Shown one piece after another: positions 359-21,820 of a DNA stretch of 35,514 nt. The position numbers and the translations under genes are program-made. This DNA comes from Pirellulales bacterium (lineage in GTDB: Bacteria > Planctomycetota > Planctomycetia > Pirellulales > Thermoguttaceae), in the NCBI GenBank assembly GCA_016935315.1, contig JAFGRD010000123.1, positions 1 to 35,514 of the forward strand, in the 5' to 3' direction. The notes below the pieces were generated by a model that saw nothing but the letters and a program-made list of their open reading frames with translations, was not told the DNA's origin and ran no database searches. Position 1 is the first letter of the stretch. Each line of letters starts with the position of its first letter.

Positions 359-1418
359 GGCAACGGCTAACGGCGGTTGCATCAACCGCCTGAGAAAGCA
401 GAACGCTGAATGACAACAGCTGCTCGCACGGTGAGTGAGTGAGCGTCGGCCGAACTGCTCGCTCATGCTTGGCAACTGAGACCGGCAAGATCCAAGAACT
501 GATCAGAATCTGCCAGGAACAGCGATTCGAGCGGTTCGCACCTCGGGCCATTTGGCCCGGCTCCTTCGGACGTTCCAGGCGGAATGACAGGCAGTGATCC
601 GCCTGTGAGGGCGGAGGAGGAAACAACGGAGTCCCGTTTAACCACCCTTTAGCCACACAATTCTCATTGGCCCTCAGGCATCCGACGTCTACTCGCCGTC
701 CGGCCAGCACCTGACTCTGGCTCCCGCATTGAGGACAACCACTCGTTGACCGCAGCGTGATCGTAGTGCTTGACACGCGTGCAGACGCCCAGCATCAGTC
801 TTATGCCGTGATTGCCGTGACCTCCAAGGCAATTGGGTACACACGTTTGGCGCAAACAATCGGCGACCGGTAGCTAGAACATGATGGGACCCGTTGGCGT
901 TGGGGGGGCGCCGGGGGGAGGGTCAGAGGACGGTGTGCCTTGACGCGCGTTCATCATCGCGTTTCGGCGCGCTGCATCGATGGCCATCATTCCGACAGCA
1001 AGCCCAAAACAAGCCCCAAACAGCCTGCAAACAACGCCCCAACAACACACGCCCTAGGGCGATCACACGTGCCATGCGACTGATCACGTGGCGAAGCAGT
1101 GTCTGCCCACCCAATGCGTTCACCCCCAGTGCCCGAACGTGCCTTGGCGGTTTCTGCCGAGTGAAAAGGGGCGCCGGGGCTTTGTCCCTTTCGCCCGTGT
1201 CCCATTTTCCAAAGTGTCCAACGAGAATTCTTTTCTGGCTGCGGGCACTCTCCGTCCCTATAGGGCGAAAACACTTTTTGTATTCGGCACCACTTCACTA
1301 GGTTTGTAAACTGGTGCAGACGCCGGGCGCGACGTGCCGCCCGGCCACCAACAAAATGGCCCCCGCGGTGCGACAACACCCGAGGGCCTGGCCCAAACCT
1401 ACTAAGGAGGTTCGGACG
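359..1418. other. About 1 kb with no convincing gene
   Basis: This stretch separates the zinc-ribbon gene from the ardC-like gene. Frames are open on both strands, but their translations are Arg/Ser/Pro-rich, show no domain I recognise and have no credible ribosome binding sites. It could hold decayed genes or an undetected RNA. The only structure I can point to is the GC hairpin at 1322-1345 just before the next gene. Confidence 0.5.
1322..1345 (+). promoter_or_regulatory. GC-rich hairpin in the leader of the ardC-like gene
   Basis: GCCGGGCG (1322-1329) pairs perfectly with CGCCCGGC (1338-1345) across an 8-nt loop. It lies about 75 bases before the ATG. No T-tract follows, so it is not a classical terminator. 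A role as leader structure or attenuator is only a guess. Confidence 0.3.
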
Positions 1419-2879
1419 ATGAAATTCTATCGCAAGGCGGAGAGTGCAGCCAGGGCCATTTTGGAGGCCTTCCGTTGCGGCAGCGTCCCCAAGGCCATGG
1501 CGCCGGTCTTCATCCGACGCAAGGACAACGTGCCCTGCCGGTCCTGGTCCAACCAGATGATCGCCGCCCTGTTCTGCGGGGGCGACGCCCGCGGCTACCG
1601 CCAATGGCAAGAGGTCGGCCGGCAGGTGAAAAAGGGCGAGAAGGCCGCCCACATCCTCGTTCCCCTGGTCGGCAAACGCAGCGAGACGGACGCCGAATCC
1701 GGACAGACGCAGGAGCAGACTTTTCTCTACGGGTTCACCAGTGCGCCGGTCTTCGGGCTGCACCAGACCGAGGGCGCCCCGTTGCCGCCCCCGGACCCCG
1801 AGGTGATGGCCTGGCTGGAGAACCTGCCCCTGGTCGAGGTGGCCCGGTCCTGGGGCCTGTCGATCGACGCCTACAACGGCCGCCCCGGGGCGCCTTTGGG
1901 CAAGTATCGCGGAAGGCAAGGCATCGCCCTGGGAGTAGAGAACCTGGCCACCTGGGCCCACGAGATGTGCCACGCGGCCGGCGACCGGTTGGGCAACCTT
2001 ACGGAACGGGGCCAGCATTGGCGAAGCGAGACGGTGGCCGAGTTGGGCGGGGCGATCTTGCTGGAGATTCTCGGCCACGAAACGCACAGCGACCGGGGCG
2101 GCTGTTTCGAGTACGTCAAGGCGTATGCCGATGCGGTCGGGATCGAGCCCATGGCAGCCTGCCAGCGGGTCCTGAATCGCACTTGTGACGCGGTGGCGTT
2201 GATTCTGGGCACGGCCGCACCGGTGATTGACGCGGACGGGAAGCGATGTCGGCCGTGGGTGTTTCGAATCATCCTCAGCCACAGCCGCAAGGGCTACAGC
2301 GAGGCGGTCTATCGACAGACGACCGAGGCGTTCGTCCAGTGCCTCGAAAACGCATTTCACTATTTCGGCGGCGTTCCCCGTCGATTGGTCATCGACAACC
2401 TCAAGGCGGCCGTGTCGAGGGCCGACTGGTACGACCCGGAGATACATCCGAAGCTCCAGTCGCTGGCCGAACACTACGGAACGATCTTCGTGCCGACCAA
2501 GGCCTATACCCCACGGCACAAGGGCAAGGTCGAACGGGGCGTCGATTACGTCCAGGAGAACGGGCTGAAGGGGCGTCAGTTTTCCAGCCTCGAAGAAGAG
2601 AACCGCCACCTACTCGACTGGGAAGCAAACGTCGCTGACACGCGGATCCACGGCACGACGCGAAAACAGGTCGGCGGTCTGCTCGAGTCGGTCGAGCGGC
2701 CCGCGCTGCTTGAACTTCCACCGGACCGATTCCCCTCCTTCCAGGAGGCGACCCGCAAGGTCCATCGCGATGGGTACATCGCCCAGGCTGATTTGCGTGT
2801 AGACGCCCATCACCCCAGGAAATCCAGCCGTGTGCCGGTCTTGTCTTTCAGGGGGCCGGATAGCAGGGGATCGTGTTGA
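1419..2879 (+). CDS. ArdC-like antirestriction protein fused in frame to an IS21 IstA fragment
   Basis: The ATG at 1419 is chosen because AAGGAGG (1404-1410) sits 8 bases upstream; the product is 486 aa. Residues 1-264 look like an ArdC-type protein: an N-terminal ssDNA-binding-like region (SWSNQMIAALF, KKGEKAAHILVPL), then a zinc-metallopeptidase-like part with HEMCH at 181-185 and a likely third ligand, Glu208, in VAELG. ArdC proteins are known from plasmids as antirestriction factors. From about residue 266 to 455 the sequence becomes an IS21-family IstA transposase (FRIILSHSRKGYSEAVYRQT, VIDNLKAAV, KGKVERG). Its second catalytic Asp (326) and Glu (372) are present, but the first Asp and the N-terminal helix-turn-helix are missing, so it cannot be an active transposase. 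The last 30 or so residues match neither family and overlap the convergent methyltransferase gene by 70 bases. The ArdC part may still be functional with a foreign tail. Confidence 0.8.
   Translation: MKFYRKAESAARAILEAFRCGSVPKAMAPVFIRRKDNVPCRSWSNQMIAALFCGGDARGYRQWQEVGRQVKKGEKAAHILVPLVGKRSETDAESGQTQEQTFLYGFTSAPVFGLHQTEGAPLPPPDPEVMAWLENLPLVEVARSWGLSIDAYNGRPGAPLGKYRGRQGIALGVENLATWAHEMCHAAGDRLGNLTERGQHWRSETVAELGGAILLEILGHETHSDRGGCFEYVKAYADAVGIEPMAACQRVLNRTCDAVALILGTAAPVIDADGKRCRPWVFRIILSHSRKGYSEAVYRQTTEAFVQCLENAFHYFGGVPRRLVIDNLKAAVSRADWYDPEIHPKLQSLAEHYGTIFVPTKAYTPRHKGKVERGVDYVQENGLKGRQFSSLEEENRHLLDWEANVADTRIHGTTRKQVGGLLESVERPALLELPPDRFPSFQEATRKVHRDGYIAQADLRVDAHHPRKSSRVPVLSFRGPDSRGSC
2217..2790 (+). 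mobile_element. istA: Internal fragment of an IS21-family istA gene
   Basis: The translation over this interval follows the core of IS21 IstA, from 'GKRCRPWVFRIILSHS' through 'DNLKAAV' and 'KGKVERG' to 'RKVHRDG'. The helix-turn-helix, the first catalytic Asp, the C-terminal part of istA and the whole istB ATPase gene are absent. No terminal inverted repeats were found on either side. It is a relic, in the same frame as the upstream ardC-like gene. Confidence 0.8.
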
Positions 2880-3538
2880 AGGCTGTCGTCAGCGCAGAGA
2901 TGCACGGCGAACTGAGTGCGATAGTACTCACGCCGCCGCCAGCGACAGCGGCGTCGACTCCAACGCGCCAGTAACCGTGCTAATCGCCGGCCGGCCATTG
3001 CGTCGAGTCGGGCCTGAAAACGCTCGAGAAATCGGCGCGTGTTTTCCACCGTGGACTCGCCGACGGGCCGTTTGAAGCCGATGCCGTACATCGTGTGAGG
3101 GAACGTCTCGGCACCCTGCCACCCCACTACCGTCGCCGATGCTGCGGTGAGCAACTGCTCCACGGCACGGGGTGTCGCGCGCCAATGAAGGTCTTCGGGG
3201 CCGGACACGAAGCCGGCCAAGGGCGCACAAACCAGCATTTTGCCACCCGGCTTCAGGATCCTGGCGATTTCGTTTCCGGCCTGGTTTGCGCGAAAGGCAT
3301 AGTCCAGCGCGCCGATACAGAGCACAGTGCGCGCCGCCTGGTCGGGAAAGGGCAACCGGTCCGCTTTGGCCGCACGGCTCAACTCGAACTGGACATGTGA
3401 GGTCCGGGCAAAGCACCCGCGCAGCGACGTCTGAAGACGTGGATCGCCGCTCTCGTAGAGCCCAAGCTGATAGACGGGACCTCTCAGCCCGAACGCCTCA
3501 ACCGCGCTAGCGACGAACGCCTCGATCGACTCGTACAT
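2810..3538 (-). CDS. SAM-dependent methyltransferase, type 11-like
   Basis: The start at 3538 (MYESIEAF) has GGGAGAG seven bases upstream on the minus strand; an earlier in-frame ATG at 3592 lacks such a site. The product is 242 aa. The middle reads like a class I methyltransferase: 'ADRLPFPDQAARTVLCIGAL' resembles the region around motifs III-IV, and 'ARILKPGGKMLVCAPLAGF' is the typical strand after motif V. The glycine-rich motif I is not clear (VYQLGLYESGD), so cofactor binding may be atypical. The start lies within the end of the upstream glycosyltransferase gene (32-base overlap), so the two are probably co-transcribed and translationally coupled. That pairing suggests modification of a cell-surface glycan or lipid-linked sugar, which is inference. 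The 3' end overlaps the ArdC-IstA frame and the last 25 or so residues may be altered by that junction. Confidence 0.72.
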   Translation of the reverse strand: MYESIEAFVASAVEAFGLRGPVYQLGLYESGDPRLQTSLRGCFARTSHVQFELSRAAKADRLPFPDQAARTVLCIGALDYAFRANQAGNEIARILKPGGKMLVCAPLAGFVSGPEDLHWRATPRAVEQLLTAASATVVGWQGAETFPHTMYGIGFKRPVGESTVENTRRFLERFQARLDAMAGRRLARLLARWSRRRCRWRRREYYRTQFAVHLCADDSLQHDPLLSGPLKDKTGTRLDFLG

Positions 3539-5309
3539 GTTCGTACTCTCCCACCGGGAAAGGTGCGGTTTCGGCTGCCAGGTGTCGTGCAAATCGTTCG
3601 GGGGCCCACTGGTAGACGACCACGGCCTGCTGATTCGGCCGACGCGCCGACGGCTGGGGGAACTCGGCGACGGGCCGGGCCGCTACCTCGATCAGCCACG
3701 CCAGCGTTCGGCTGCGAGCGCTGTCATAACCTGGTTCCCGCTTCTCCATCACGAGATACGCCAACTCGGGGTCGCTCAAGACCGCTGGGCCTTGCGTGTA
3801 GCGATAGGTATGGCGACCGGAGTACAATCCGGTCCAGCCCTGTGTGTCGAGCACCGTTCCTCCGGCGACCTTGTGCCCCGCAAGCCATTCTCCGGCCCCG
3901 CGATGCCCCAGCCGACTACTGTGGTGTCGTATGAGCGTTTGCGGCAGGCAGGCCGCCGCCGCCAGCAGCACCAATATCCACGCTCCGACAGGTTGGCATC
4001 GAGGGGATCGCTTGGCAGCCTGCAAGACAGGCCAGGCATCAAGCGGATTTCTTCTCGCAACATACCAAGCCGTAACCTCTCGCCCCAATTCCAGCGTACC
4101 GTATCCGGCGGCACCCATGCCCGCAACTACCAGCGGCAGAAGGTGCCGCGGAGCAAGATACCCTTCCGCGGCCGCGAAAGCGATCGCCGCCAAGGAATAC
4201 AGCACGAAGAAGATCTGCACGAACCGCTCCGAGATGCTGACCCGACTGCGCCGCAAACGCCAGGCCCCAAACAGGGCCAATGCACCGATCCAATAGCCAA
4301 ATGCGTCGCTCAGCTTCCTGACAAACTGGCTGACCGCCGCCGCATAGCCTCGCCGGCGGATACTGATGCCCGGCTCCTTTTCCGCAAACGAGGTCCGTTC
4401 TCCGTCGGCCAATCGCCAGGCGGTGGTTGTCTCTGCCATGGTCGGGGCAGCCGAGACCGGTTTTGGTTGCCGGCGACCCAACACGCGGGCCAGGGCCGAC
4501 TGGGGTTGCAGTGCCCCTACGGAAGCGAAATACGGTCCGAGCACGGCGGCCAATCCCAGCATCCAGCATGCCAGCGCCGTGCCCAATCCCGTCCACGACT
4601 GACGGCGACGCGGAACTAGCTGGAAAGCGCACAACCCCACCCAGAAAGCCAAGGCCAGCACCAGGACTTCGGCACGGGTCAGCAGCGCCAAGGCCATTGC
4701 CACGCCGGTCGGCAGTAGCCAGAACGAAGCACCCGGCGCGTAACGCGTTGCTATGTCCCGCGAGCCGCGGGCGTTCTCGCCGGGTGAGTCCATATCGGGG
4801 CAGACGCTACGGCCCGCTCTGCCTTCTCTCCTCCAGAAGTACTCCACGGTCGCCCAGAACGCCACGCAGAAAAACAGCAAGTGTGTGCTGTCGCTAATGC
4901 CGTCGGCTCCCAGCCGCGACACCTCGGGCAGCAGGCAGTAGAAGAGAGTTCCAGCCAGCGCAGCCGGCGCGCCGACCAGCCGCACAAGCAGCAAGTAGAG
5001 TGGTATCACCGACAGCACCGATGCAGCGGCCGCCGCCGACTGAACGCTGGTTGCCCAAATCGAGGGAGAGTTACCAACCAGCGACTCAAGACCCTCATGG
5101 ACCACCCAAACCCAGACGGGAAACAGCGGCTGTTCCCACTGAGCCCGGACCGTTGGCAGCAGCCCTTGCTCATCGATTTCTTGGGCATAGCGTGCGAACC
5201 GGACGCCATCCAATGCCGTTGTCGTGGCCCGACGGACGACCACCGTTTGCACAAGACAGGAAAGGCCCAACAGCCCGACAATAGCCAGAATGTGACGAGA
5301 GCGTTTCAT
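3507..5309 (-). CDS. GT39/PMT-type membrane glycosyltransferase
   Basis: A 600-aa integral membrane protein. I place the start at 5309 (MKRSRHIL) because a hydrophobic segment follows at once; an ATG at 5345 is also possible, and neither has a strong Shine-Dalgarno site. It has many transmembrane segments and an early 'DGVRFARYAQEIDEQG' loop, which matches the first periplasmic loop of lipid-phosphate-sugar-dependent glycosyltransferases (ArnT/PMT_2 families), where an acidic residue is catalytic. These enzymes transfer a sugar from a polyprenyl-phosphate donor to lipids or proteins on the outer face of the membrane. A Lys/Arg-rich loop and a soluble C-terminal part (about residues 470-600) follow the membrane core. 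It overlaps the downstream methyltransferase gene, which points to an operon. The acceptor cannot be predicted. Confidence 0.75.
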   Translation of the reverse strand: MKRSRHILAIVGLLGLSCLVQTVVVRRATTTALDGVRFARYAQEIDEQGLLPTVRAQWEQPLFPVWVWVVHEGLESLVGNSPSIWATSVQSAAAAASVLSVIPLYLLLVRLVGAPAALAGTLFYCLLPEVSRLGADGISDSTHLLFFCVAFWATVEYFWRREGRAGRSVCPDMDSPGENARGSRDIATRYAPGASFWLLPTGVAMALALLTRAEVLVLALAFWVGLCAFQLVPRRRQSWTGLGTALACWMLGLAAVLGPYFASVGALQPQSALARVLGRRQPKPVSAAPTMAETTTAWRLADGERTSFAEKEPGISIRRRGYAAAVSQFVRKLSDAFGYWIGALALFGAWRLRRSRVSISERFVQIFFVLYSLAAIAFAAAEGYLAPRHLLPLVVAGMGAAGYGTLELGREVTAWYVARRNPLDAWPVLQAAKRSPRCQPVGAWILVLLAAAACLPQTLIRHHSSRLGHRGAGEWLAGHKVAGGTVLDTQGWTGLYSGRHTYRYTQGPAVLSDPELAYLVMEKREPGYDSARSRTLAWLIEVAARPVAEFPQPSARRPNQQAVVVYQWAPERFARHLAAETAPFPVGEYEHVRVDRGVRR

Positions 5310-7125: not shown

Positions 7126-8685
7126 ATGGTTCGCACTCGATTTGCCCCCAGCCCGACCGGATACCTTCACATTGGCGGCGTCCGCACGGCGCTGTTCTGC
7201 TGGCTGTTTGCCAGGCGACACGGCGGTCGCTTCGTCTTGCGGATCGACGACACCGACCAGCAGCGGAACGTCGAGGAGGCATTGGCCCCGATCCTCCACG
7301 GGCTGCGGTGGCTGGGTATCGACTGGGACGAGGGCCCGGAAGTTGGGGGGCCTTACGGCCCGTATTACCAGTCGCAACGGGCCGATCGCTACCGGGCGGT
7401 CGCCGAGAGACTTCTGGCCGACGGACTGGCCTATCGCGACTATGCCACCCCCGAAGAGATTCAGGCGGAGCGCAAAGCGGTCCAGCAGCTGAAGCGTCCC
7501 TTCATTTACAGCCGCCGCTGGATGGCCGAGACGTCTCAGCAACAGGCCCGGTTCGAGGCCGAAGGTCGCCAGGGCGTGGTCCGGCTGAAGATGCCCCGGG
7601 AGGGCAGGCTGGTGGTCGACGATCTGGTGCGCGGGCAAGTCGAATTCGAGTGGGCCCAGGAGCAGGACCACGTGATCCAGCGGGCGGACGGCTCGTGCTT
7701 GTACCACCTGGCCAGCGTGGTCGACGACCACGAGTTCCAGATCACGCATGTCATCCGCGCCGAAGAGCATCTTTCCAACACGCCACGCCAGGTCTTCATT
7801 GCCCAAGGCCTTGGTTACGAGCTGCCCCAGTATGCCCATTTGCCCTATGTAGCCGAGCCCGGCAGCAGGAACAAGCTCAGCAAGCGAAAGCTGGCGAAGT
7901 ACTTGAAGAATCGTGATTTTGCCCAACGGGTCGAGCACGGCCGGAAGATCGCCGAGGCGATCGGCCTGAAAACCGATCCCGAGGCCTTCAACCCGGTGAT
8001 CGTCGACTTTTATGAACAGGTGGGCTACTTGCCCGATGCCATCGTCAACTACCTCGCCTTGCTGGGCTGGTCGCTGGACGACCAAACGGAGCACTTCACA
8101 CGGCAGGAGCTGCTGCAGAGTTTCTCCATGGAGCGTGTCAACAAGGCGCCGGCCAGCTTCGACTGCCAGAAACTTTGGGCGTTCCAGGAGCACTACATGC
8201 AGCAGGTGCCGGACGACGAGAAGATCCGCATGGTCTTGCCCTACTTGCAGAAGGCGGGGCTGGCGGCTTCGCAACCGCCTGGCGAAGTCGAGGCGAGAGT
8301 CGCCAGGATCGTCCGAGCCGCCGGCGACCGCATCAAGACCGCCGGCGACGTGCTGGACTATGCCGATTTCTTCGTGCCTGACGACGAACTGCCCTACGAC
8401 GAAAAAGCCCTGCAGAAACGGCTCCGGCAACCACCGGGGGCCGTCGAGCTGTTGAGGAAGTTCCAGGCCCAACTGGCCGCGGCCGACGCGTACGACGCCG
8501 AAACGCTGGGCAAGCTGCTGCACGACTTCGTCGAGAACGAAGGAATTGGGATCGGCCAGATCATCCACGCGGTCCGCGTCGCCGTGACCGGCAAGGCAGT
8601 CGGATTCGGTCTGTTTGATACACTGGCCATCCTCGGCAAGGCAAGCTGTCTGGCCCGGATCGAGCGTGCGATACGACAGGTGTGA
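7126..8685 (+). CDS. gltX: Glutamate--tRNA ligase
   Basis: A 519-aa class I aminoacyl-tRNA synthetase that attaches glutamate to tRNA-Glu in the cytoplasm. The N-terminus '[14 protein letters not shown]' carries the HIGH-type signature (HIGG, residues 15-18), and KLSKR at 250-254 is the KMSKS loop. '[11 protein letters not shown]' is the usual GluRS variant of the RIEDTD motif. The C-terminal helical anticodon-binding part is present, and the length is normal for bacterial GluRS. I see no zinc-binding cysteine cluster in the connecting domain. The ATG at 7126 is set by homology; no Shine-Dalgarno sequence is visible before it. glnS follows 98 bases downstream on the same strand, so the two are likely co-transcribed. 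Confidence 0.95.
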
Positions 8686-8783
8686 CCCCGGGGCAGGTGC
8701 GCCACGGGCTTGGATGCGACGGGCTCGGATGCAGGCATGCCGACGACACGAACTCAATGAGAAATGAGACAGGAGCGGTCAAC

Positions 8784-10490
8784 ATGAGCACGAACGATTC
8801 CACACGCTCTTCCGATTTCATCCGAGACATTGTCGCCGAAGACCAGAGAACGGGCAACTGGGACGGTCGCGTGCACACCCGCTTCCCGCCCGAGCCGAAC
8901 GGCTATCTGCACATCGGGCATGCCAAGTCGATCTGTCTGAATTTCGGCATCGCCGAAGAGCATGAAGGCGGGCTGTGCAACCTGCGATTCGACGACACCA
9001 ATCCGCTCAAAGAAGAGCAGGAGTATATCGACGCGATCAAGGAAGACGTTCGCTGGCTGGGGTTCGATTGGGAGGATCGCGAGTACTTTGCTTCCGACTA
9101 TTTCGATCAACTCTGCGCGTGGGCCGTGCAGTTGATCCAAGCGGGCAAGGCGTACGTCTGCGATCTCGATGCCGATCAGATCCGCGAATACCGCGGCACC
9201 TTGACCAAACCGGGCAAGGACAGCCCGGATCGAAACCGGTCGGTGGAAGAGAACCTCGTTCTGTTTGAGCGGATGCGGGCCGGTGAGTGTCCGGACGGCT
9301 CGCGGACCTTGCGGGCGAAGATCGACATGGCCCACCCCAACCTGAACATGCGGGACCCGGTCATGTATCGCATCCTGCACGCCGCGCATCCGCGCACGGG
9401 GAACAAATGGTGCATTTACCCGACGTACGATTTCACCCACGGCCAGTCGGATTCCATCGAGCGAATCACGCATTCGATCTGCACGCTGGAGTTCGAAAAC
9501 CACCGCCCGCTGTACGACTGGTATCTCGACGCGCTGGAGGTCTACCATTCCCGGCAGATCGAGTTTGCCCGGCTGAATCTGACCTACACCGTGATGAGCA
9601 AGCGGAAACTGCTCACGCTGGTGCGAGAGGGCTACGTCAGCGGTTGGGATGATCCGCGGATGCCAACGATTTGCGGACTGCGCCGACGCGGGTATACGCC
9701 CGAGGCGATCCGCAGCTTCTGTGAGCGAATCGGCGTGGCCAAGTTCAATAGCACCATCGACATCGCGCTACTGGAGCATAGCCTTCGCGAGGATCTCAAC
9801 CAACGGGCCCCGCGCGTGATGGCCGTGCTGCGGCCCCTGAAAGTCGTGATCGACAACTATCCGAAAGGTCAGGAGGAGGAGCTTGACGCCGTCAACAATC
9901 CGGAAGATCCCGGCATGGGCACGCGAAAAGTCCCGTTTTCTCGGGTGCTGTACATCGAGCAGGATGACTTCCGCGAAGACCCGCCCAAGAAGTATTACCG
10001 CCTGGCGCCGGGACGCGAGGTGCGGTTGCGTTACGCCTACTTCATCAAGTGCGTGGAAGCAGTCAAGGATGAGACGACGGGCGAGGTCGTGGAACTACAC
10101 TGCACCTACGACCCCGAGACGCGCGGCGGCGGCGCTCCCGATGGCCGGAAGGTGAAGGCCACGCTACACTGGGTATCGGCTGCCCACGCACTCCAGGCCG
10201 AAGTCCGACTCTACGACCATCTGTTTGCCAAAGAATACCCGGAGGCGGTCGACGAAGGCTCCGACTTCAGGGCGAACCTGAACCCGAACTCGCTGCACAC
10301 GTTGACCTCTTGCCGCGTCGAGCCAAGTCTCGCCGGCGCACCGGCCGAGAGCCGCTACCAGTTCGAACGGCAAGGCTATTTCTGCGTCGATTCAGCCGGC
10401 TCGTCCGATGCCAAACTGGTCTTCAACCGCACCGTATCGCTTCGCGACACCTGGGCCAAAATTGAGAAGACCCAGAACTCCGGGCAATAG
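8784..10490 (+). CDS. glnS: Glutamine--tRNA ligase
   Basis: A 568-aa GlnRS that charges tRNA-Gln directly. The ATG at 8784 is preferred because AGGAG (8771-8775) lies 8 bases before it; the in-frame ATG at 8757 lacks a site. '[17 protein letters not shown]' carries HIGH at 43-46, and VMSKR at 270-274 is the KMSKS loop. '[17 protein letters not shown]' and '[20 protein letters not shown]' are hallmark GlnRS segments. The C-terminal two-barrel anticodon domain is complete ([15 protein letters not shown] through [12 protein letters not shown]). Bacterial GlnRS is generally taken to derive from a eukaryotic-type GluRS lineage by transfer. Its presence means Gln-tRNA need not be made by amidation of Glu-tRNA. 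Confidence 0.96.
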
Positions 10491-10662: not shown

Positions 10663-13600
10663 TTATCGTGGATCGGCCAGCAGGGCGTCGATAGCCTGGT
10701 CGGCTGCCTGGACGTTCTTGGCCGGATTCTGCTTCGCCTGGAGCTTCTCAAACTCGTAAAGCCAGGTCATCTTGGCCGGCGACGACTGCGGCGTTGCCGC
10801 CTCCTCGACGGCCGTTTTCTTCCACACGGCGTCCAACGCCGCTGATTCCGCAGCCTTGACGCCTGGCACGGTAATCAGTCTCAGCGCGTTGAGGAAGTTC
10901 GTCTGGTTGTTGCGCGCGATCAGCATGTCAGTGGCGTTGACCCGGGCGTCACGGTTGAAATCGGCATGGAAATCGATCGGGGCCGGATTGAGGAAGTTGC
11001 GGGGGTTGTTCCGGGCCAACAGCATGTCCGTGGCGTTGACCTTGGCATCGAGCGTCGAGTTGCCTGCCTCGCCCACGGCGTTGCCGAAGTAGAACACGTC
11101 GTCCGACAAGAGACCGGTGTCCGCGTTGGCCAGCACGGTGACCTGGAGCCACTGCTTCGAGATGGCGTAGTCGGGCCAGATGATTGTCACGCGATCGGAG
11201 CCGCCCTGGCCGGCGCCAAGTCGGAGGGTCACGCTGGAGGGCGCCGGGGTGATCGCCCAGGTGCTCGGAGTGTTGCTGTTGCCCACGCGAAACTGGAAGT
11301 CGCCGGCGTCCAACACCGTGTCGCCGGGGACGCCGGCAATGTCGATCATCACGCCGTTGATGCCGCGGGTGTAGCTGGTGTAGTTGGCGAAGGTCGCCGT
11401 CTGGCCCGGCAGCAGGGCGGTTTTGTCCGGTGCAATCGCCCCATCATCCAGGGCATTGGCGGCCGCATTGTTGCCGTCGAACGAGGAGAAGTTGTAGAAG
11501 ACGTGGCGGGCCACGACGCGCCCCGGAGCGGCATATTCCACGCTGCCGGGCGTGGGCGGACCGGAGGTCCACATGGTTCCGTCGTTGCCCCAGCTCTCCG
11601 GCTGCAACCGGTAAAGCGAGCTGCCGGTGCCGTCGGCCTCGACCGGCCACGACCCTTCGTCGTCGTAAACCACCTCGTCTTCCAGCAGCCGCGGATAGAA
11701 TCCCGGCTCGTCCGGCGGCGGCGTATCGGGCCGCTGCAACTGCACCCGCTCGCCTCCGTCGTCCAAATGGCCGCTGAAGGGCCCCCACAGCCGCACCGAG
11801 GCGTCAATCCCGTAGTGCGTCCGAAAAGCCACCGCGGCGTCGGTATCGGCCGGGTCGAACGGTACGACGACCGCGACGCCGTAAGCGTCCAGCACCGCGT
11901 CGGCGGGGAAGTCGAAGTCGACCCCCTTGCCAAGCCGCCAATGAGCCAAGCCGACCGGCGCCGCGGTCGGGTTGTAGATCTCGACGAATTCAAACTCTTC
12001 GGCGTCCGGGAACGTCCCGGGGTTGTACTGCACTTCGCTGATAATCACCGGTCCCACTCGCGGGCCGCTGTTCTGGCCATGGGCCGGATCGAGGGTCCGC
12101 TGGCTCATCGGATACAGCGGCCCCTCGCCGTTGGGCCAACGCCCGAAGCTCTCGCCGTTCTTTGCCGCGCCGAAGATCGCGTAATCGACGAACCGCGTCG
12201 GCTTGCCGTCCGCGCCGGCGGCCACCAGGTAGACCTCGTCACCGTGGGCCCCATCCAGGGCGAAATCATTCGGCCCCGGATTCAATGGCGTGGGGTTGAA
12301 ATCGTCTTCGTCGAAGACCACGTAGCCGAAAGCGGGAATGGTGGTCCCATCGGGAATCCGGAACTTCAGGTAGGCGGCGTCCGAGTCGCTGAGGTACCAA
12401 CCGCCGACGTCGATCGGATCGGCCGTCGTGTTGTACAACTCGATCGAATCGACCAGCGGCGGGTCGGTGTGGGTGAGCACCTCGTTGATGACGACGTCTC
12501 GCCGCGGCGTGCCCTCCGCGCTGCCGGGAGTCCCGCCCAGCACGGTGCCTGTCTGCCAGCTCTGGCTCTGACTCCAACTGGCCGCCTTGGCGGCCGGGTC
12601 GCGGATTTGCAGGGCGTACCCGTCGCCGTCGGTGGTCGGATACCAGGCGTCGCTGTACTCGAACCGTAGCACGGCAGCCTCCAGCGGGGCGGCCAGCTGT
12701 AGCACAAGCTCCTCGCCGCAGTTGCAGAGGCTGCCGGAAAACTCGCCGGCCACGTTGTTGCCCGGACCGTACGCCCGCGCAAAGGCCTCGCGGTTGCTGA
12801 CCACGACGACGTAGTCGCCCGGGGCAAGCATCAGCGCCGGGAAGGTGAAATCAATGCCGCCGGCCAGCCGCGCGCCGGTCAAATCGAGCGTCGCGGCGCC
12901 GACGTTCTGCAGCTCGACGAATTCCGTATCGGTGTTCTCCGCCGGGTGATACATGATCTCGGTGACCCGCAGCCCGTCGAGCAAAGCCATCGCCTGGGCG
13001 ACGCGGGCATCCTCCGAGACGGTAATCGTCGCGTCCAGCGTCATGCCAAAGACAACGTCGGAGCTGGTGTCGCTGGTCTGATGGACCTCCACCGCCAGCA
13101 CGTTATCGCCTTGTCGCAGGCTGCCCGTGGGAAGGGTGAACGGCCCCTCCGGGTCCGCGTCGCCCACGCTGCGCACCGGGGGCCCCATGCCCAGTTGATA
13201 CACCTGCTGCCCGTTGAGGTAGAAGATGGCCCCGTCGTCGATCAGCGTGCTCATGGTCAGCACCACGCTTGCCGGATCGGCGTCGAGCGTGAAATGCGTG
13301 CGGAAATAGTAGGTCATGACCTGGGGGCTGCCGAGTGACAGCGGCGTGTTGATCGGCGATGGCAGCGTGGAGTCCTCCACGCCCAGCACTCCCGGACCAC
13401 TCGGCCAGGCCGGCACGGGCGTAAACTCGGGCTGATTCCAGTTGGGGTCGGCCGCGGCGCCCGACTGGTCATAGGACCAGACGCTGTCCATCGCGATCAA
13501 CGGAACGGTGATCGTTGCCGGGAAGGGATTGCTGACTCCCGGCGTGGGCAGCCTGGAAAACGCGTAGCTCTCGGCGCCGTCCGGGGCGCGGCCTTCGGCG

Positions 13601-16600
13601 ACGTCGGTCGTCTGCGGATAGTAGACGATCTTGTCGATCTGCTTCAGTTGGGCGTCGAACAGTCCCAGCAGCTCCTGGCCGGACGAGAGCTTGAAGCCGA
13701 CGTGGTTGGCCCCTGCTGCGGTGTCGGAGTCGGCCACGAAGACGGCGTAGCCACTACCGGCGACGAAACTCAACGGGGCGATCTCGTGCATGTCAGGCTG
13801 GCCGTAGGGCCGATCGCTGAGGTACAATCCGGCCAGAGGCACCGGAAGCGGGTCGGCGTTGTACAGCTCGAGGAAGTCGTCGGCGAGCCGCACGTCGCCG
13901 TTGGCGAACCACTCGTTGATCTTCAACGTCGCGGGGTTGCCCGTCCGTTGGGCCACGTTGGCCGTGCCCAACGTCGGCTGGCACAGCGCCCACTCGGCAC
14001 GATGGCCGATCCGGCCGATCGACAGGTCGGCAAGCTGCATGCCGAATTCGACCGAATCGAGCAGCGCCCCGCCGTTGGCGGCCGTGTCATACAGCAATAC
14101 GGCCTCGCCGTCGCCGTCCAGCGCGAAGCCCAGGTGAAGCCCCGAGGTGCCGGTGTCGTTGTCGGCGTATACCACCAGGTATCCGCCGGCCGGGATGGTG
14201 GTCTCGGCGGGCCGGCTGCTGGGGAAGACGTATTTCGCCGGGTTGGGCGAATTGTCGCTCAGGCTCATGCCGGCAAGATCCACCGCGTTCGGCCCGGCGT
14301 TGTACAGCTCGATCAGGTCGGGATACGTCCCTTCGTGCTCCACCGCCGCCGTATTGATCGCCAGCACCTCGTTGATTCGCACTCGCAGGGGCAACGGCGA
14401 CGTATCGACCGCCCAGGTTTGCGAGACGCTCGCGTCGGCCTCGTCCTGCCAGACGTTTGCGCGGTTCTTGCCTTGGACCTCCACGGTGTAGTCGCCGTCG
14501 GCCAGTCCGGTAAGCACGATCGGCGAGGCAACCGGCGTTTCGCTGCTCCAGACCCCGCCGTTGACGCGATATCGGTAGGCCGCGATGCCGGGCCCGCCGA
14601 CCGTCAGAGTGGCGGCGGTCTGCGCGGTCGTCGCCGGGGGCTCGCCGGCGATGGACGGTCCGCCTGGCACCATGGCCCCCATGTCCTGTCCGTTGGGCCC
14701 GGCTGCCACCGCGGGCGAGCCGGGCAGCAAATGGAAATCGCCAACGGTCGGATCGGCCAATCGCGGGTCCTCGTCGAGGTTTCCCGTGCCGTAGACGTGA
14801 TACGCCGCCGGCATGATGTTCCGGTGGGCCACCAGATCCGTGTCGACCTGCACTTCGTTAAAGATCACGGCCGTCTCGGCGAAAATGTTCCCCTCGACGT
14901 AGGCCCCGCGTCCCGGGCCGCTGGTGTCGCCCGGACGCACGAAGTACACGGCCGAGATCACCCCGCCGACCAGCGTGTTGTTGACCAGCGTGAGAAACGC
15001 GTCGTCCTTGACCTGGGCGATGTGGTCCACGTCGTAGAAGGTGTTGCGAGCCATGGTGAAGTCGTGCCCGGCACCGGCCGAAATCACGTTGGAGTCGCCC
15101 GTGCCCGTATTCCACTGGTCCTTGCGGATGTGCATGAAGGTGTTGCCCTCGATCAGGGCGTCGCCTTCCAGATCCAGCGCGTCGTCGCCGCCGCCGAGAA
15201 ACACGTTGTTGAGGTATTGCATCACGGTGGCGGGCGAAGAATGGCCGTCGACGTCAATCACGTCGTTGTGCCCCTTGGTGGTGCCGAAGACATTGTTCTC
15301 GATGAGGAATTGTCCGCTGTCCGAGGCCCGCCCCCAGATGTGCTCGCTGAGGTTGTCGGTGATCGGGGCCTCGCCGGGGCCGAAGATGTCGGTGAACGTC
15401 GAGTTGCGGACGATCAACGTCGAGTCCAGCGTCCGGATCCGCCGCCGCTGGGCATGGTCGAATGTGCAATGGTCGATCAGCAGGTTCGAGTTCACCACGC
15501 CCACCAGACCGTCGTTGGTCGTGGCGTATTCGAGCACCGCGTAGCTCAGACGGTTGTCCTGCATGGTATCGGCGAACTGCAGGCCGTTCCAGCTTCCCCC
15601 GTTGGGGACGTGCGTGAAGCGGATCTGCTGATACTTCGTCCCTTCGGCCAACAGCCGGCCGTTGATCGTCAGGCTCGTGTTGTCCTCGAAGAACAACGTC
15701 GTGCCCGGTTCGATCGTCAAGGTAACGCCGGAGTCCACGACCACACTGCCGGTGAACGTGTAGGGTCCGTCGGCGGCCGTGAGGATCGTATCGACCGAGA
15801 TGTTGCCGGCGGGAATCTCCGCCGCGGCCAGAATGGGGCCGTCTTGGGGCGCGTCCGTCAGAGCCTCCTGCCCGGCCTGGTTGGTGGGAATCGACGCCGG
15901 GGCGCCGCCGGGGGCCTCGACCGTCCAGGTTTTCGACACGCTGGCTTCCGCTTCGGCCTGCCAGATGCCGGCGGAGTCTCGTGCAATGACCTCCACCGTG
16001 TAGTCGCCCGCGGCCAGGCCGCTTAGCACGATCGGCTCGCGTCGCCGGGCGATGATCGTGCCGGTGGCCGGCGAAGTCGGCGCGCCGGTCACGGTGACCT
16101 GGAAGGTGTTGACCGTGGCGTTGGCGACGGTAAACGCTCCATTGTACTCTCGCTGCTTGGAACCGTAGATATCCACCACGTCGCCGTTGGCATAGCCGTG
16201 GGCGGTCAGCGTCACGGTGGCCGTCGAGCCGACGCGGGTGATCGATCCGACCGTCTTGACGGCCGCCCGTTCGGTGCTCCAGACGCCCTCGTTGACGCGG
16301 TACTTGTAGCCGTAGATGTGCGGCCCGCCCACGGTCAGCGTGGCAGAGGTCTCGGTCGTGTTGGCGGGTGGCTCGCCGGCGATGGTCGCTCCGGCCGGAA
16401 TGAGGCCGCCCATGTCGACGCCGTTGGGCCCCGTGCCGACGGCCGGCGAGCCGGGCAGCAGCGCGAAGGCCGCCCTGATGCCGGCTTCCGTGATGTCGCT
16501 CGGATTCGGATTGCTCAGCAGCGGATCGACGCCGATGAGGTTGCCCGTGCCGACCCAGGACACGGGCTCGGCGTCGGTGGCGGGATAGACGATCGAGTTG

Positions 16601-19600
16601 TTCATCGTCACGGCCACGGGGCGGGTGGTGGGCTCCAGGTGCTCGAACAGGGCCGACACGTTGTAGAAGATGTTGCCGTCGAGGTAGACGCCGTTGCCTT
16701 CGTATTGGGGCGGGCGGTCCTCGAAGAAGTTGATTGCGGCGGTGGTGGCGTTGGTGGTGGTGTACTTCTTGTAGACGTTGACGATCGTGTTGTTGACGAT
16801 CGTGCCGTGGGCGCCGTCCTTGATGATGATGGCGTGATCCACGTCGTAGAACAGGTTCCGCACGATGGTGACTTCCGTGCTCTGATCGAGATCGTTGCCG
16901 GTGGCGATGGCGTGCGACTTGCTGTCGCGCGAGCCGTCCTGGTGGAAGTCGACGAAGACGTTGCCCTCGATGTGGGCGTCCGTGCTGTCCAGGTCCAGCG
17001 CGTCGTCGCCCCCGCCGGAAAAGTAGTTGTTCATCACGCGGAGAATCGGGCCGGGCCGCTGACCGCCGGTGAAGTCGATCACGTCGTTGTAGCCGTTGGC
17101 TCTCCCGAACCAGTTCCCCTCGAACAGCGCGTATCCGCCGGTCGGAAAGCCCGTGCCGTGGATCAGCTCGCCGCTGCCCAAGTCGGGAAACGTGCTGTTG
17201 CGGACGATGATCGACGACGTGTGAATGTCGAGATAGTACGACTCTTCATGATTGTTGAAGTTGACGTTCTCCAGCACGACCTGGGCGTTGGTCATCTCGA
17301 CGGCGTCGCCCGCCGAATCGGAATAGCTGATGTCGGCGTAGGCAATGTGGTTCACCTGGGTGGAGTAGGAACCGTAACTGAAGACGATGCCCGCCCAGGC
17401 GCCCGACTCGCCGAAACGGGTCAGCGTGATCCGGTGGTCGTCCAACCCCTCAGCCAAGAACCGGCCGTTGACGGTCAGCCTCGTGCCCGGGTCGAAATAC
17501 ACCGCCGTGCCCGGCTGGATCGTCAGAGTCTGCCCGGCCGGCACGGTGATGCTGCCGGTCACGTGGTAGTAGCCGTTGACCGGCGACCATTCGCCGGAAA
17601 CGTTTCCGGCGGGAATCACGTTCTCGGTCTGGTCCGCGTCGTACCAGACGTCGATGTAGCCGGTTTCCAGCGGCTCGCCCGTCCCTTCGCGGTTGTCGAA
17701 CGTCTCGACGACGATCCGGTTGACGCCCGGATTCAGCGGGACGCCCCCGGTTCCCGGCGTGCCGTCATCCAGCGTGACCGACAGCATCGGGCGGTTGGCG
17801 CCGGTGCCGTCCTCGTGCGAGTCGAAGTCGACCCCGCCCGACCCGGTGGGCAACAGCACCCAGCCGTGGTTGCTGGAGGGGGCCGCCTGCCATGCCAGCA
17901 CCGAGCTGGTTACATCAATTGTGATCCGCCCGGTCGAGCCCGCCGAGGCCACCGCGTCGGCGGTGGCCATGGCCTCGATCCCGTTGGCCTGGACACCGTT
18001 GCCGCCGAACGTGTTCCAGTTGCTCGTCTCGGCCCATCCGCTGAGCATCCGGTGTAACTGCATGTTGTCGCCGGTGTCCGTGACGTTCAGCGTCAGCGTG
18101 GCGCGGGCGATCGGATCGGTCAGAGCCACCTGGCCCGGCCCGTCGCCGAAGATGTTGTCGAAGCGGATCAGTGCCTGCACCGCGCCGCCGTCGTCCGAGC
18201 CATCGACGTTGATCGATGTCTCCGTGCTCAGGTCCGCTGTGGGTGTGCTCCAACGTATTTCGGTGTCCACCGTGCCGGCGTAGGTGGCGTCCGGGTTCAC
18301 GCCGTCCTGGAACGAGAGGACGGTCGCGCCGATGCCGCCCTGGCCGAACGCCCAGGTACCCTCCCGTGGCGACCAGTCCACGTCCACGCCGTTGACCCGG
18401 ACGAGATAGGTCTCCGAAGCGTCGGCCGTCCCCGTGATCGCCGCCACCGGCGAGCCCGTCAAGTGATACCCGCCGACAACCGGCAGGGAGCTGTCGATGG
18501 TGAACTCCCGCGGGATCTGTGACAGAACCTCCGCGGTCCGCTCGTCAATATAGTTTTTGATGCCGACAATGGTGCTCGCCGGGGCGAAAGGTCCCAGGAC
18601 CCGGTCGATCAGCGGGTCGAGCACCGTCCGATTGAAGAACGCGCCCATCAGGTCCAAAAACGCCTGGTAGTATAGCGGTGTGACGTCGGGGTGGTGCAGC
18701 AGGCGGTCCAGGGCCTCGACGCCGTTGGAGCCGCTCACACCGTCGGCCGGGGCGAAGATGCTCTGATCGGTCGCCCCGCTGCCGGAAAGCTGCATCAAGG
18801 AATCCAGATCGTGCGGGATCAGGACGAACCGCGGGTCGTTGAAGCCGGCGTACATCGTATAGTCGTCGCCGATGCCCCTGCTTAGGCCCGTCTCGCGATT
18901 CAGCAGCAGCGCGTCCAGCGCCAGCCAGTGCAGCCACTGGTCTACGTCGATCACCGTGCTCACCTCGGCCAGGTAGCTCTCCTCGGGCGCGTTGGCCAGC
19001 ACGTCGGTCATGTGGATCAGGTCGGACCAGTCGTCCACGTCCTCGTTGGTCATCTTGAAGTACGTGTCGCGGTAGGCGTCGGGATTGGCGCCCTCGTAGC
19101 GGAAATCGGCCTCCTGGCTGTAGTCGTCCAGACGCAGGCCCTTGTAGAGATTGCCGTCGCCGTCCTGGGGGAAATGCCTCGCGGTGAAGTCGGTGTCGGG
19201 GGCCTCGAGCGACACGTACGTGCCGTACATGCGGCCGTAGTTGACGCTCAGGTCGGTGCCGTTGACCAGCACTTGCACCCCGACGGCGTTGGGCGCCGGC
19301 AAGCCGGCCATCTGGTACATCGCCATGCCCAGGATTTGCGAGTCCGTGTTCTGGCAGTTGATGTTGATCCGCGTCATGCTCTGCCACGGCCGGTCGTTGG
19401 CGAAGTTCACGCGGTAGTTGTTTGGAGGACCGGTCCGGGTGCCGTGCCCGCGATTGCGCACGCCGGCGTTGTAACGCAGCTCCACATCCACCCCGTCGAC
19501 GCTGATGAACGTCGCATTCATCTGGGCGTTGCTGTCGTCCTCGCTGCCCGTGCCGCCGTCGCCGATGTCGGCCAAGCGCAAGCGTTCGGCCTCGGTCATC

Positions 19601-21186
19601 AGGATCCGGTAGATCGGTTTGCTGCCGGGGGTCCACTGGGCCTCGGGGTCGAACGAATCGTCGACCTGATACAGGGCGTTGGTGACCTGCTGCGGTGTGC
19701 CGTCCACGTTGCTCGGCGCCGGCCAGGTCCGACTGTGGGCGCCGGCGTCGGAGGCCTCGACGAAGAACTCCACCACGGTCCCGTCCGGTTGCGAGGGGAC
19801 TTGGCCCCCGTAGACCCCGTCGCCCGCCGCGCCATCGCCGCTGGCCCCGTCGTCACGCATCGCCACGACCGTGTAGCTTGCCGCGTTGTACGTCGGGTAG
19901 GTGTTCTGGTCGTAAGTCGAAGTGTCGACGCGGTAGTGCAAGCTCACCGTCAGGCCGGTGTCCAACTCGTCGATGATTCGGGCCGTCACGACTACCGGAT
20001 CGGTCGCCCGGGGAATCACGGGCCCGTGGGCAACGTCCACCACCAACGGCGCGATGTCCGTTGTGGCCGCCGAGTTGGCCGCTCCCGGCGTGCCCTGGTC
20101 GGCCGTGCTGGCCTTCCAGTTTTGCCCATATTCGTTCGGCACCAGCAGATTGATCAGCTCCAGCGATTTCCCGCCGCCGTCGTGGTCGTCGGTCCACTGC
20201 CAGCCGCGATGAGTGTAGTCGAGCGGACCCAGCTCTCGCGATGCCCAGTCGCCCTCATCGGCGTAGCTTACGCGGTCGACGCGAACGCCGATGGAGTCGA
20301 CTACTTCGACTGTCTCGCCCCCATTGGCCAGGTGGCCCGACCAGCCGCCGATGACGTTCGTCACCCCCGGGTACTTGGCCGAGAAGGCCGCCACGTCGGC
20401 CGCGACGACCAGGTATCCGTCCTTGGGAATCGACACATTGGGAAACGCGAAGTCCACGCCGTCGGTGATCTGCCAGCCCGAAAGATCCACCGGCCCCGAG
20501 CCCTCGTTATGCAGCTCGATGTATTCCTCCAGATCATTTTGCGAGGAGGGGTGATACATGATCTCGGTGATCACGAGTTGGTGCGTGGGGTCGGGGACGG
20601 GCTGGCCGAGGTTCGGCTCGCCGGGTGTCGGAGCCGTGAAGTAGCCGCGCGTCGCCAGATTCGGCGACAAGCCATAGGAGACGTCGGGATACTGCTGCGG
20701 AAAGGCCGGGGCGTACTCGAACTCGATGGTCGTTCCGTTGGGCCGCACCAGCCCCAGGTATTCGCCGTCGCCGCTGAGCTTGAAGTTCGTGTGCAACTCG
20801 CCCGGCGGTCCGTTGGGGGCCTTTTCCGACGCAAAAACCAGCAGATAGTCGCCGGCCGCCAGGCTGTGCGTGGGGAACTGCCACTTGGTCAGGTTGTCTG
20901 CCTTGTCGGTCAGGTACCAGCCACCTAGCTCGATCGGAGAAGCCGTGGGGTTGTGGACCTCGATCCAGTCGACATGCTCCCCATCGCCATCGACGCGGCC
21001 GCTGTCGTTCAGCGCCATGAACTCGGAAATCACCAAACTGCCGTCCAGGAGCATTCGCGGCTCGAGCGGCTCGAACACGAGTCGGTCGTGTTGCCTGCGG
21101 GCAAGGCTCGATCCAGCAGTGGCCGGCTCACGGCGAAGCCGGCGATGACGGTACGCAGAGGTTATTCCCTTGAAGTTGCGCAGCAT
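10663..21186 (-). CDS. Giant secreted CotH-kinase / lamin-tail / beta-helix protein
   Basis: A protein of about 3507 aa. The ATG at 21186 has GGAG six bases upstream. The N-terminus is Arg-rich and carries LEPRMLLDG at 41-49, the LEPR-XLL motif of large exported planctomycete proteins. Domains by approximate residue: lamin-tail (LTD) 1 and 2 at 50-330 (LVISEFMALND, LVITEIMYHPSSQ); a CotH-type kinase at 520-800 ending in FVLIPHDLDSLM; a DNRLRE-like module at 975-1135; a right-handed beta-helix at 1190-1600; a second beta-helix at 1790-2180; LTD 3 and 4 from 2267 and 2420; a jelly-roll-like module at 2560-2720; LTD 5 to 7 from 2737, 2898 and 3045; and a dockerin-like pair at 3374-3435 (KVNATDMLLARNN, RVNATDMLIARNN). 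LTD and dockerin modules suggest a role in extracellular binding or assembly. CotH proteins are atypical kinases of spore-coat proteins; activity here is inference. Seven LTD copies, two helix modules and an inserted domain near 1640-1715 indicate growth by module duplication. Confidence 0.9.
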   Translation of the reverse strand: MLRNFKGITSAYRHRRLRREPATAGSSLARRQHDRLVFEPLEPRMLLDGSLVISEFMALNDSGRVDGDGEHVDWIEVHNPTASPIELGGWYLTDKADNLTKWQFPTHSLAAGDYLLVFASEKAPNGPPGELHTNFKLSGDGEYLGLVRPNGTTIEFEYAPAFPQQYPDVSYGLSPNLATRGYFTAPTPGEPNLGQPVPDPTHQLVITEIMYHPSSQNDLEEYIELHNEGSGPVDLSGWQITDGVDFAFPNVSIPKDGYLVVAADVAAFSAKYPGVTNVIGGWSGHLANGGETVEVVDSIGVRVDRVSYADEGDWASRELGPLDYTHRGWQWTDDHDGGGKSLELINLLVPNEYGQNWKASTADQGTPGAANSAATTDIAPLVVDVAHGPVIPRATDPVVVTARIIDELDTGLTVSLHYRVDTSTYDQNTYPTYNAASYTVVAMRDDGASGDGAAGDGVYGGQVPSQPDGTVVEFFVEASDAGAHSRTWPAPSNVDGTPQQVTNALYQVDDSFDPEAQWTPGSKPIYRILMTEAERLRLADIGDGGTGSEDDSNAQMNATFISVDGVDVELRYNAGVRNRGHGTRTGPPNNYRVNFANDRPWQSMTRININCQNTDSQILGMAMYQMAGLPAPNAVGVQVLVNGTDLSVNYGRMYGTYVSLEAPDTDFTARHFPQDGDGNLYKGLRLDDYSQEADFRYEGANPDAYRDTYFKMTNEDVDDWSDLIHMTDVLANAPEESYLAEVSTVIDVDQWLHWLALDALLLNRETGLSRGIGDDYTMYAGFNDPRFVLIPHDLDSLMQLSGSGATDQSIFAPADGVSGSNGVEALDRLLHHPDVTPLYYQAFLDLMGAFFNRTVLDPLIDRVLGPFAPASTIVGIKNYIDERTAEVLSQIPREFTIDSSLPVVGGYHLTGSPVAAITGTADASETYLVRVNGVDVDWSPREGTWAFGQGGIGATVLSFQDGVNPDATYAGTVDTEIRWSTPTADLSTETSINVDGSDDGGAVQALIRFDNIFGDGPGQVALTDPIARATLTLNVTDTGDNMQLHRMLSGWAETSNWNTFGGNGVQANGIEAMATADAVASAGSTGRITIDVTSSVLAWQAAPSSNHGWVLLPTGSGGVDFDSHEDGTGANRPMLSVTLDDGTPGTGGVPLNPGVNRIVVETFDNREGTGEPLETGYIDVWYDADQTENVIPAGNVSGEWSPVNGYYHVTGSITVPAGQTLTIQPGTAVYFDPGTRLTVNGRFLAEGLDDHRITLTRFGESGAWAGIVFSYGSYSTQVNHIAYADISYSDSAGDAVEMTNAQVVLENVNFNNHEESYYLDIHTSSIIVRNSTFPDLGSGELIHGTGFPTGGYALFEGNWFGRANGYNDVIDFTGGQRPGPILRVMNNYFSGGGDDALDLDSTDAHIEGNVFVDFHQDGSRDSKSHAIATGNDLDQSTEVTIVRNLFYDVDHAIIIKDGAHGTIVNNTIVNVYKKYTTTNATTAAINFFEDRPPQYEGNGVYLDGNIFYNVSALFEHLEPTTRPVAVTMNNSIVYPATDAEPVSWVGTGNLIGVDPLLSNPNPSDITEAGIRAAFALLPGSPAVGTGPNGVDMGGLIPAGATIAGEPPANTTETSATLTVGGPHIYGYKYRVNEGVWSTERAAVKTVGSITRVGSTATVTLTAHGYANGDVVDIYGSKQREYNGAFTVANATVNTFQVTVTGAPTSPATGTIIARRREPIVLSGLAAGDYTVEVIARDSAGIWQAEAEASVSKTWTVEAPGGAPASIPTNQAGQEALTDAPQDGPILAAAEIPAGNISVDTILTAADGPYTFTGSVVVDSGVTLTIEPGTTLFFEDNTSLTINGRLLAEGTKYQQIRFTHVPNGGSWNGLQFADTMQDNRLSYAVLEYATTNDGLVGVVNSNLLIDHCTFDHAQRRRIRTLDSTLIVRNSTFTDIFGPGEAPITDNLSEHIWGRASDSGQFLIENNVFGTTKGHNDVIDVDGHSSPATVMQYLNNVFLGGGDDALDLEGDALIEGNTFMHIRKDQWNTGTGDSNVISAGAGHDFTMARNTFYDVDHIAQVKDDAFLTLVNNTLVGGVISAVYFVRPGDTSGPGRGAYVEGNIFAETAVIFNEVQVDTDLVAHRNIMPAAYHVYGTGNLDEDPRLADPTVGDFHLLPGSPAVAAGPNGQDMGAMVPGGPSIAGEPPATTAQTAATLTVGGPGIAAYRYRVNGGVWSSETPVASPIVLTGLADGDYTVEVQGKNRANVWQDEADASVSQTWAVDTSPLPLRVRINEVLAINTAAVEHEGTYPDLIELYNAGPNAVDLAGMSLSDNSPNPAKYVFPSSRPAETTIPAGGYLVVYADNDTGTSGLHLGFALDGDGEAVLLYDTAANGGALLDSVEFGMQLADLSIGRIGHRAEWALCQPTLGTANVAQRTGNPATLKINEWFANGDVRLADDFLELYNADPLPVPLAGLYLSDRPYGQPDMHEIAPLSFVAGSGYAVFVADSDTAAGANHVGFKLSSGQELLGLFDAQLKQIDKIVYYPQTTDVAEGRAPDGAESYAFSRLPTPGVSNPFPATITVPLIAMDSVWSYDQSGAAADPNWNQPEFTPVPAWPSGPGVLGVEDSTLPSPINTPLSLGSPQVMTYYFRTHFTLDADPASVVLTMSTLIDDGAIFYLNGQQVYQLGMGPPVRSVGDADPEGPFTLPTGSLRQGDNVLAVEVHQTSDTSSDVVFGMTLDATITVSEDARVAQAMALLDGLRVTEIMYHPAENTDTEFVELQNVGAATLDLTGARLAGGIDFTFPALMLAPGDYVVVVSNREAFARAYGPGNNVAGEFSGSLCNCGEELVLQLAAPLEAAVLRFEYSDAWYPTTDGDGYALQIRDPAAKAASWSQSQSWQTGTVLGGTPGSAEGTPRRDVVINEVLTHTDPPLVDSIELYNTTADPIDVGGWYLSDSDAAYLKFRIPDGTTIPAFGYVVFDEDDFNPTPLNPGPNDFALDGAHGDEVYLVAAGADGKPTRFVDYAIFGAAKNGESFGRWPNGEGPLYPMSQRTLDPAHGQNSGPRVGPVIISEVQYNPGTFPDAEEFEFVEIYNPTAAPVGLAHWRLGKGVDFDFPADAVLDAYGVAVVVPFDPADTDAAVAFRTHYGIDASVRLWGPFSGHLDDGGERVQLQRPDTPPPDEPGFYPRLLEDEVVYDDEGSWPVEADGTGSSLYRLQPESWGNDGTMWTSGPPTPGSVEYAAPGRVVARHVFYNFSSFDGNNAAANALDDGAIAPDKTALLPGQTATFANYTSYTRGINGVMIDIAGVPGDTVLDAGDFQFRVGNSNTPSTWAITPAPSSVTLRLGAGQGGSDRVTIIWPDYAISKQWLQVTVLANADTGLLSDDVFYFGNAVGEAGNSTLDAKVNATDMLLARNNPRNFLNPAPIDFHADFNRDARVNATDMLIARNNQTNFLNALRLITVPGVKAAESAALDAVWKKTAVEEAATPQSSPAKMTWLYEFEKLQAKQNPAKNVQAADQAIDALLADPR

Positions 21187-21732: not shown

Positions 21733-21820
21733 CACGGCAACATCGGCCAGGACGTGGTCCGGGCCTGGCGACCAACGGGCAGTTCCCGGTTCAGAGGTGT
21801 TCAGAGAAGGAGGCACTTCC

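Follow-up and report, generated by a model that had tools for sequence, protein, structure and literature searches.

The window, by which we mean the whole stretch of 35,514 nucleotides analysed here, contains near its start an open reading frame (1419 to 2879; features lie on the plus strand unless stated otherwise) in which parts of two protein families are joined, as judged from its stop-free translation of 486 amino acids and a search of its own genome. Residues 1-263 (1419 to 2207) form an ArdC-like antirestriction protein that ends with the last conserved helix, RTCDAVALIL; this assignment comes from family profiles, comparison with R388 ArdC, Foldseek and the confidence of a structure model. 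Residues 264 to about 455 (2208 to 2782) are an internal piece of IstA, the transposase of IS21 elements, with a partial DDE domain. The join lies within CTG GGC ACG GCC GCA (2205 to 2219), which is ArdC-like upstream and IstA-like from about GGC. The frame closes with a 31-residue tail and the stop codon (2783 to 2879), which overlap in antisense with the 3' end of a convergent SAM-methyltransferase ORF (2810 to 3592, minus strand), whose stop lies about 28 bp past the IstA piece; the tail has no family or solved-structure match in profile and PDB-sequence searches. The methyltransferase is 32-42% identical to its eight best relatives within the family and looks complete at its convergent end, because six of the eight align as far as residue 256-258 of 260, while the remaining two end at 243 and 219. 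A sequence-only reading had described the frame as an ArdC protein joined in frame to a dead IstA core behind a strong ribosome site, and both points hold: the first is borne out by the translation, the profiles and the structure-sequence matches, the second by a Shine-Dalgarno-like AAGGAGG read from the sequence 8 nt upstream of the ATG (1404 to 1410). Purine-rich sequences of the AGAGGA/AGGAG type also precede several ArdC relatives, and a sigma-70 promoter scan of 1100-3000 returned no site, with 0.2 expected. Chance is ruled out for both the ArdC and the IstA homology. Elsewhere in the window, two adjacent class I E/Q-type tRNA synthetase genes (7126-10490) point to a chromosomal contig. 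Two further long frames lie on the minus strand, one of 3837 aa in which a CotH kinase domain accompanies seven stretches of lamin-tail domain (10663-22176) and one of 1060 aa with PQQ/BamB-like propeller repeats and a weak methyltransferase match below the cut-off (28143-31325).

The ArdC part is recognized by the Pfam profile ArdcN, PF08401, at residues 59-112 (E 1.1e-5) and with 27 bits against a cut-off of 22.6, which identifies an ArdC-N domain with single-stranded DNA binding as the activity predicted from the family. The coverage of PF08401 is partial (68-123), as it is in L098 (68-123) and two further relatives (L002 and L014). R388 ArdC (6i89, 6sna) aligns with residues 60-233 (phmmer E 3.4e-4) at about 20% identity and shares both the ArdC-N domain and the HExxH metalloprotease domain. 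The metal ligands of R388 ArdC are described as H201, H205 and E229 (PMC7213743). Their counterparts are found in the HEMCH motif (1959 to 1973), whose His181, Glu182 and His185 are equivalent to R388 H201, E202 and H205, and in Glu204 (2028 to 2030), the likely third metal ligand. Glu208 had earlier been named in this role; however, R388 E229 aligns with Glu204, which is conserved as Glu in 42/42 distinct aligned relatives (44 distinct in all), whereas position 208 is Glu in 39 and Gln in three of the 42 aligned there. HEM in place of HEL was considered as a sign of decay and rejected, since HEMVH or HEMIH is present in four relatives. The close ArdC relatives (46-64% identical) terminate 12-24 residues past residue 262, and the portion that was lost is therefore an unconserved tail only; the ArdC protein is nearly complete, as had been proposed, and where R388 ArdC has its C-terminal tail the chimera continues with IstA sequence. 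A second ArdC is absent from the genome (search at E 0.001). The nearest ArdC from a viral contig (L098, 2441-3343; 55%) adjoins ORFs that by eye resemble phage portal and terminase genes, and this ArdC subfamily may therefore be partly phage-borne. In two other loci, a small ORF that by eye resembles a clamp-loader AAA protein lies directly downstream of ardC (L014, 1437-2081; L027, 747-1400, minus strand); no such ORF was seen directly behind the ardC of the window.

The IstA part is matched by the rve profile (residues 274-365, E 5.4e-10) and by the IS21 transposase model NF033546 (residues 271-435, 170 bits against a cut-off of 160), which assigns it to the family by its DDE core. The IstA protein of IS5376 (8q4d, 8b4h) aligns at residues 272-454 (E about 4e-19 by sequence) with its own internal core, residues 133-312. 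The catalytic residues of IS5376 are reported to be D124, D187 and E233 (PMC10122671). Equivalents of the latter two are kept, namely Asp326 (2394 to 2396), the second catalytic Asp, and Glu372 (2532 to 2534), the catalytic Glu, whereas the position of the first Asp is taken by Ile262, which is contributed by ArdC. The chimera also lacks the HTH modules, the complete beta-barrel and the C-terminal part of IS5376 IstA as well as an istB gene, and full-length IstA relatives carry about 140-220 aa ahead of the captured piece and mostly 170-260 aa behind it. Alignments and profile searches thus agree with the sequence-only reading, which had listed the HTH domain, the first catalytic Asp, the C-terminus and istB as missing. 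In searches of the genome at E 0.001, no other IS21 match lies above the family cut-off, with two weak ones confined to the N-terminal part of the profile, and no convincing istB was found; of two marginal IstB matches, one just reaches the cut-off, and only when neighbours are added. With one of its three catalytic acids and the modules on both flanks lost, the extension is probably inactive as a transposase, and the chimera is not an IS21 transposase, as the defining features are missing.

In the searches made here, the junction was seen on this contig only. Whole-protein searches covered overlapping samples of 119 genomes of the family, 396 of the order, 392 of the phylum (E 1e-20) and 397 of the class (E 1e-25), with the best four candidates or fewer scored per genome in the latter three. 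Matches were obtained in 13/119 (own genome included), 96/396, 28/392 and 25/397 genomes, respectively, and none of the listed matches spans both halves. No further strain of the species, or of the genus, was among the genomes listed. Among 152 other fetched loci, the ArdC part was matched by 53, the IstA part by 82 and both by none, and the idea that the IstA part is a normal domain of the ArdC family, which had been put forward as an objection to a fusion, is rejected on this ground. Many IstA matches start at residue 199-245 and thus formally cross the join. In 21 such alignments (G009, G138, G392, G942, G931, G885, G377, G527, G155 and others), the ArdC side contributes 4-11 identities over 24-62 positions and corresponds to the IstA stretch before the Asp, while the right side, with the exception of the match in G159, contributes 69-128 identities over 172-198 positions. 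The short match in G159 has 7/33 identities left and 17/27 right of the join; it crosses the join at 37%, but turned out to be a 183-aa 5' stump of istA that ends just past the join position and was rejected as a junction homolog. This stump (L146, 1104-1655, minus strand), which ends shortly past the first Asp, adjoins an ORF that by eye resembles a helicase gene. On viral contigs, 30 ArdC and nine IstA loci were found and none with both, two loci (L119 and L129) being cut by contig ends. None of 29 matching phage records and none of at least 5000 plasmid records reaches 80% query coverage; the matches on Burkholderia and Bradyrhizobium plasmids among the latter start at residue 183-228 and are transposase or istA where annotated. 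A collection of named genomes yielded three ArdC-type loci, two of which (L021 and L022) terminate soon after ArdC, and an ArdC-IstA fusion is unreported in the titles and abstract openings searched. The same junction, which the sequence-only reading had suggested looking for in related genomes, is thus a single occurrence.

Truncated remnants of insertion sequences fused to neighboring genes take the form of a partial transposase ORF without element ends, which lies beside or inside a gene. The present case differs from these in that the host gene is nearly full length and the frame is open. We consider it probable that the locus represents the remnant of an IS21 element that was trapped recently, and probably neutrally, at the 3' end of a solitary ardC on the chromosome. 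An IS21-family element would formerly have been located between ardC and the convergent methyltransferase gene. A deletion on the left would have taken away the HTH domain and the codon of the first Asp along with that end of the element, and one on the right the IstA C-terminus and istB along with the other end. Through the former, ardC would have been fused near codon 263 to istA in what is observed as an open frame, with loss of the ArdC stop, and the right breakpoint would lie near 2782, about 28 bp ahead of the methyltransferase stop. Neither the ends of an IS21 element nor the pre-insertion site was seen, and either an insertion followed by two deletions or the capture of an internal fragment could have produced this arrangement. 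Should the frame be translated, it would yield an ArdC-like protein carrying about 223 additional residues that would not be under selection. Disrupted IS21 copies are common in this order: some contain stops (G376, G377, G199 and G288) or split frames (G315 and G175), and others are short pieces (G312, G390 and G309) or a 5' stump (G159), some of which are perhaps cut by contig ends. Furthermore, separate, unfused relatives exist for both parents.

The sequence at the join reads GTG GCG TTG ATT CTG GGC ACG GCC GCA. In many relatives, a Thr codon is followed in the same register by Ala (ArdC) or by Ala or Gly (IstA). At the position of ACG GCC, five of seven ArdC relatives encode the Thr-Ala pair and three of the seven contain the exact word ACGGC; the five IstA relatives compared all encode Gly-Thr, followed by Ala in the nearest (L003, ACC GCC) and by Gly in four, and none contains ACGGC. 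Since ardC and istA are alike at a few bases that stand in register, it is plausible that a short shared word guided the join; however, with ACGGC in 3/7 ArdC and 0/5 IstA relatives, microhomology is not demonstrated. One of the three forward frames stays open, whereas the other two run into stops after 6-7 codons. An in-frame join of a same-strand piece is thus about a one-in-three event that needs no special cause, and this expectation weakens frame keeping as an argument for function. Out-of-frame joins would end near the natural length of ArdC, and the case would then go unnoticed.

The IstA piece contains neither a frameshift nor a stop codon, and it differs from its nearest relative with a dN of 0.185 and a dS of 1.23 (NG86). 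To define conserved columns, positions with at least 95% conservation across 23 relatives were taken, leaving out rows that were below 50% identity, partial or interrupted by a stop. The piece deviates at 6/69 of these columns; with leave-one-out columns, 19 of the 23 relatives deviate at 0-2 and four (L039, L043, L044 and L046) at 4-6. A simulation of neutral decay, which starts from the L003 codons at the changed columns and models substitutions without indels, gave 5.2 deviations at 0.03 substitutions per site. The simulated probability of at most six deviations and no stop was 0.43 at 0.03, 0.09 at 0.05 and 0.002 at 0.08 substitutions per site. Under this model, the little decay seen would be compatible with neutrality since the capture up to about 0.05 substitutions per site. 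As the piece shows little decay, the fusion appears to be young compared with the split between the piece and its closest known relative. The IstA piece is either a recent neutral capture or constrained, and the data do not need selection. The sequence-only reading had offered two interpretations, a neutral relic and a chimera with altered ArdC behavior; the former is supported, while the latter received no positive support.

Four other explanations have to be weighed against a neutral remnant. An error of assembly or binning, by which an ardC and an istA piece would have ended up in one chimeric contig, is conceivable in a draft genome of 172 contigs, where the ORF starts 1.4 kb from the beginning of a 35.5-kb contig, but it is unlikely. 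The IstA piece has two joins, and both lead into sequences that are single-copy in the genome, ardC on one side and the methyltransferase gene on the other. As, in addition, the assembly yielded no IS21 copy that could have served as donor, a collapsed repeat is not a likely explanation, although contigs made of repeats can drop out in binning. The GC3 of the piece (0.79) also resembles that of three other genes of the window (0.78-0.81).

It is improbable that the whole gene is a pseudogene, in which ArdC was already inactive and the IstA piece is further debris. This explanation draws on W43-S44-N45 (1545 to 1553), which corresponds to the WSxxN of close ArdC relatives shortened by an in-frame loss of two residues. 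WSxxN is present in 33/44 distinct relatives and a variant of the same spacing (YSxxN or WTxxN) in five, the remaining six alignments beginning too late; the spacing W/Y-S/T-x-x-N, a criterion of this analysis rather than a published one, is thus kept in 38/38 distinct relatives that reach the site and is lost in the chimera. WSxxN was also seen in five further relatives, and ArdC copies with stops do exist in related genomes (G119:C38 and G882). However, the active-site residues are kept, and the model is confident over ArdC. On the ArdC branch, third-position changes account for 43-51 of 89-102, and the ArdC part is changed at 3/65 conserved columns, compared with 0-2 in four close and 10-16 in three more distant relatives.

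Still less probable is an exapted chimera, in which the IstA core is retained because it alters ArdC, for example in DNA binding, oligomerization or partner choice. The frame is stop-free over about 190 codons, Asp326 and Glu372 are kept, and the ribosome site is good. Moreover, a survey of the polyvalent proteins of phages and conjugative elements describes ArdC-N as a domain that often heads multidomain architectures at the N-terminus (PMC5512222), and the chimera likewise has an N-terminal ArdC-N with a further domain behind it. The architectures of those proteins recur on mobile elements, whereas the chimera was found once, with its second domain truncated, on a contig with tRNA synthetase genes, and the main text of the survey (PMC5512222) uses none of the terms transposase, integrase, DDE or RNase H. 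A third-position bias is seen on the IstA branch, with 19-25 first-, 7-11 second- and 39-51 third-position changes (68-87 in total) for six single outgroups, the contrast being weaker against the consensus of all other rows (18, 7 and 14 changes at positions 1, 2 and 3). A constrained fusion would also give such a bias; however, the constraint may all date from the time when the piece belonged to a transposase, and as the time before and after the capture cannot be separated, the test is uninformative on selection after the capture.

Structure prediction speaks against an exapted chimera. In an AlphaFold2 model based on a 31-row alignment, the block means of pLDDT range from 73 to 96 over the ArdC part and from 32 to 71 over the IstA part, and the last ArdC helix (252-266) stands where the Asp-bearing first strand of the RNase H fold would be. 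In a control, the complete core of a relative from a viral contig modeled from a 7-row alignment, the first strand is formed (32-39) and the mean pLDDT is 80.6. Part of this contrast in confidence is technical, because four distant IstA rows of the 31-row alignment are poorly aligned (8-21% identity to the window, compared with 26-37% to the control in its own alignment). Foldseek matches the model to ArdC (6i89, E 1.8e-9) and IstA (8q4d/8b4h, E 2-3e-4); the TM-scores of the five significant matches are low (0.16-0.38), because the model consists of two parts of uncertain placement. The proposal that the transposase core alters ArdC has no positive support: no homolog of the junction was found, no constraint necessarily postdates the fusion, the Asp strand is lost, the model confidence is low, the HTH domains are absent and 6/69 conserved columns are changed. 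An early-stage fusion, by which ArdC would have acquired a fragment of an RNase H-like transposase core still able to fold or to bind DNA or partners, and with it a different choice of incoming DNA or transposons to act on, is the least credible of the four and highly doubtful.

We therefore return to a probably neutral IS21 remnant, with a chimera that acts, if at all, as an ArdC protein with an inert extension. The locus illustrates clearly how a host reading frame can be extended by the remnant of an insertion sequence even when selection plays no part, and both parent families as well as the join can still be recognized. It also cautions against taking the annotation 'ArdC-transposase fusion' as a new functional protein. 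If the functional reading were nevertheless true, the locus would show an antirestriction protein in the act of capturing a domain.
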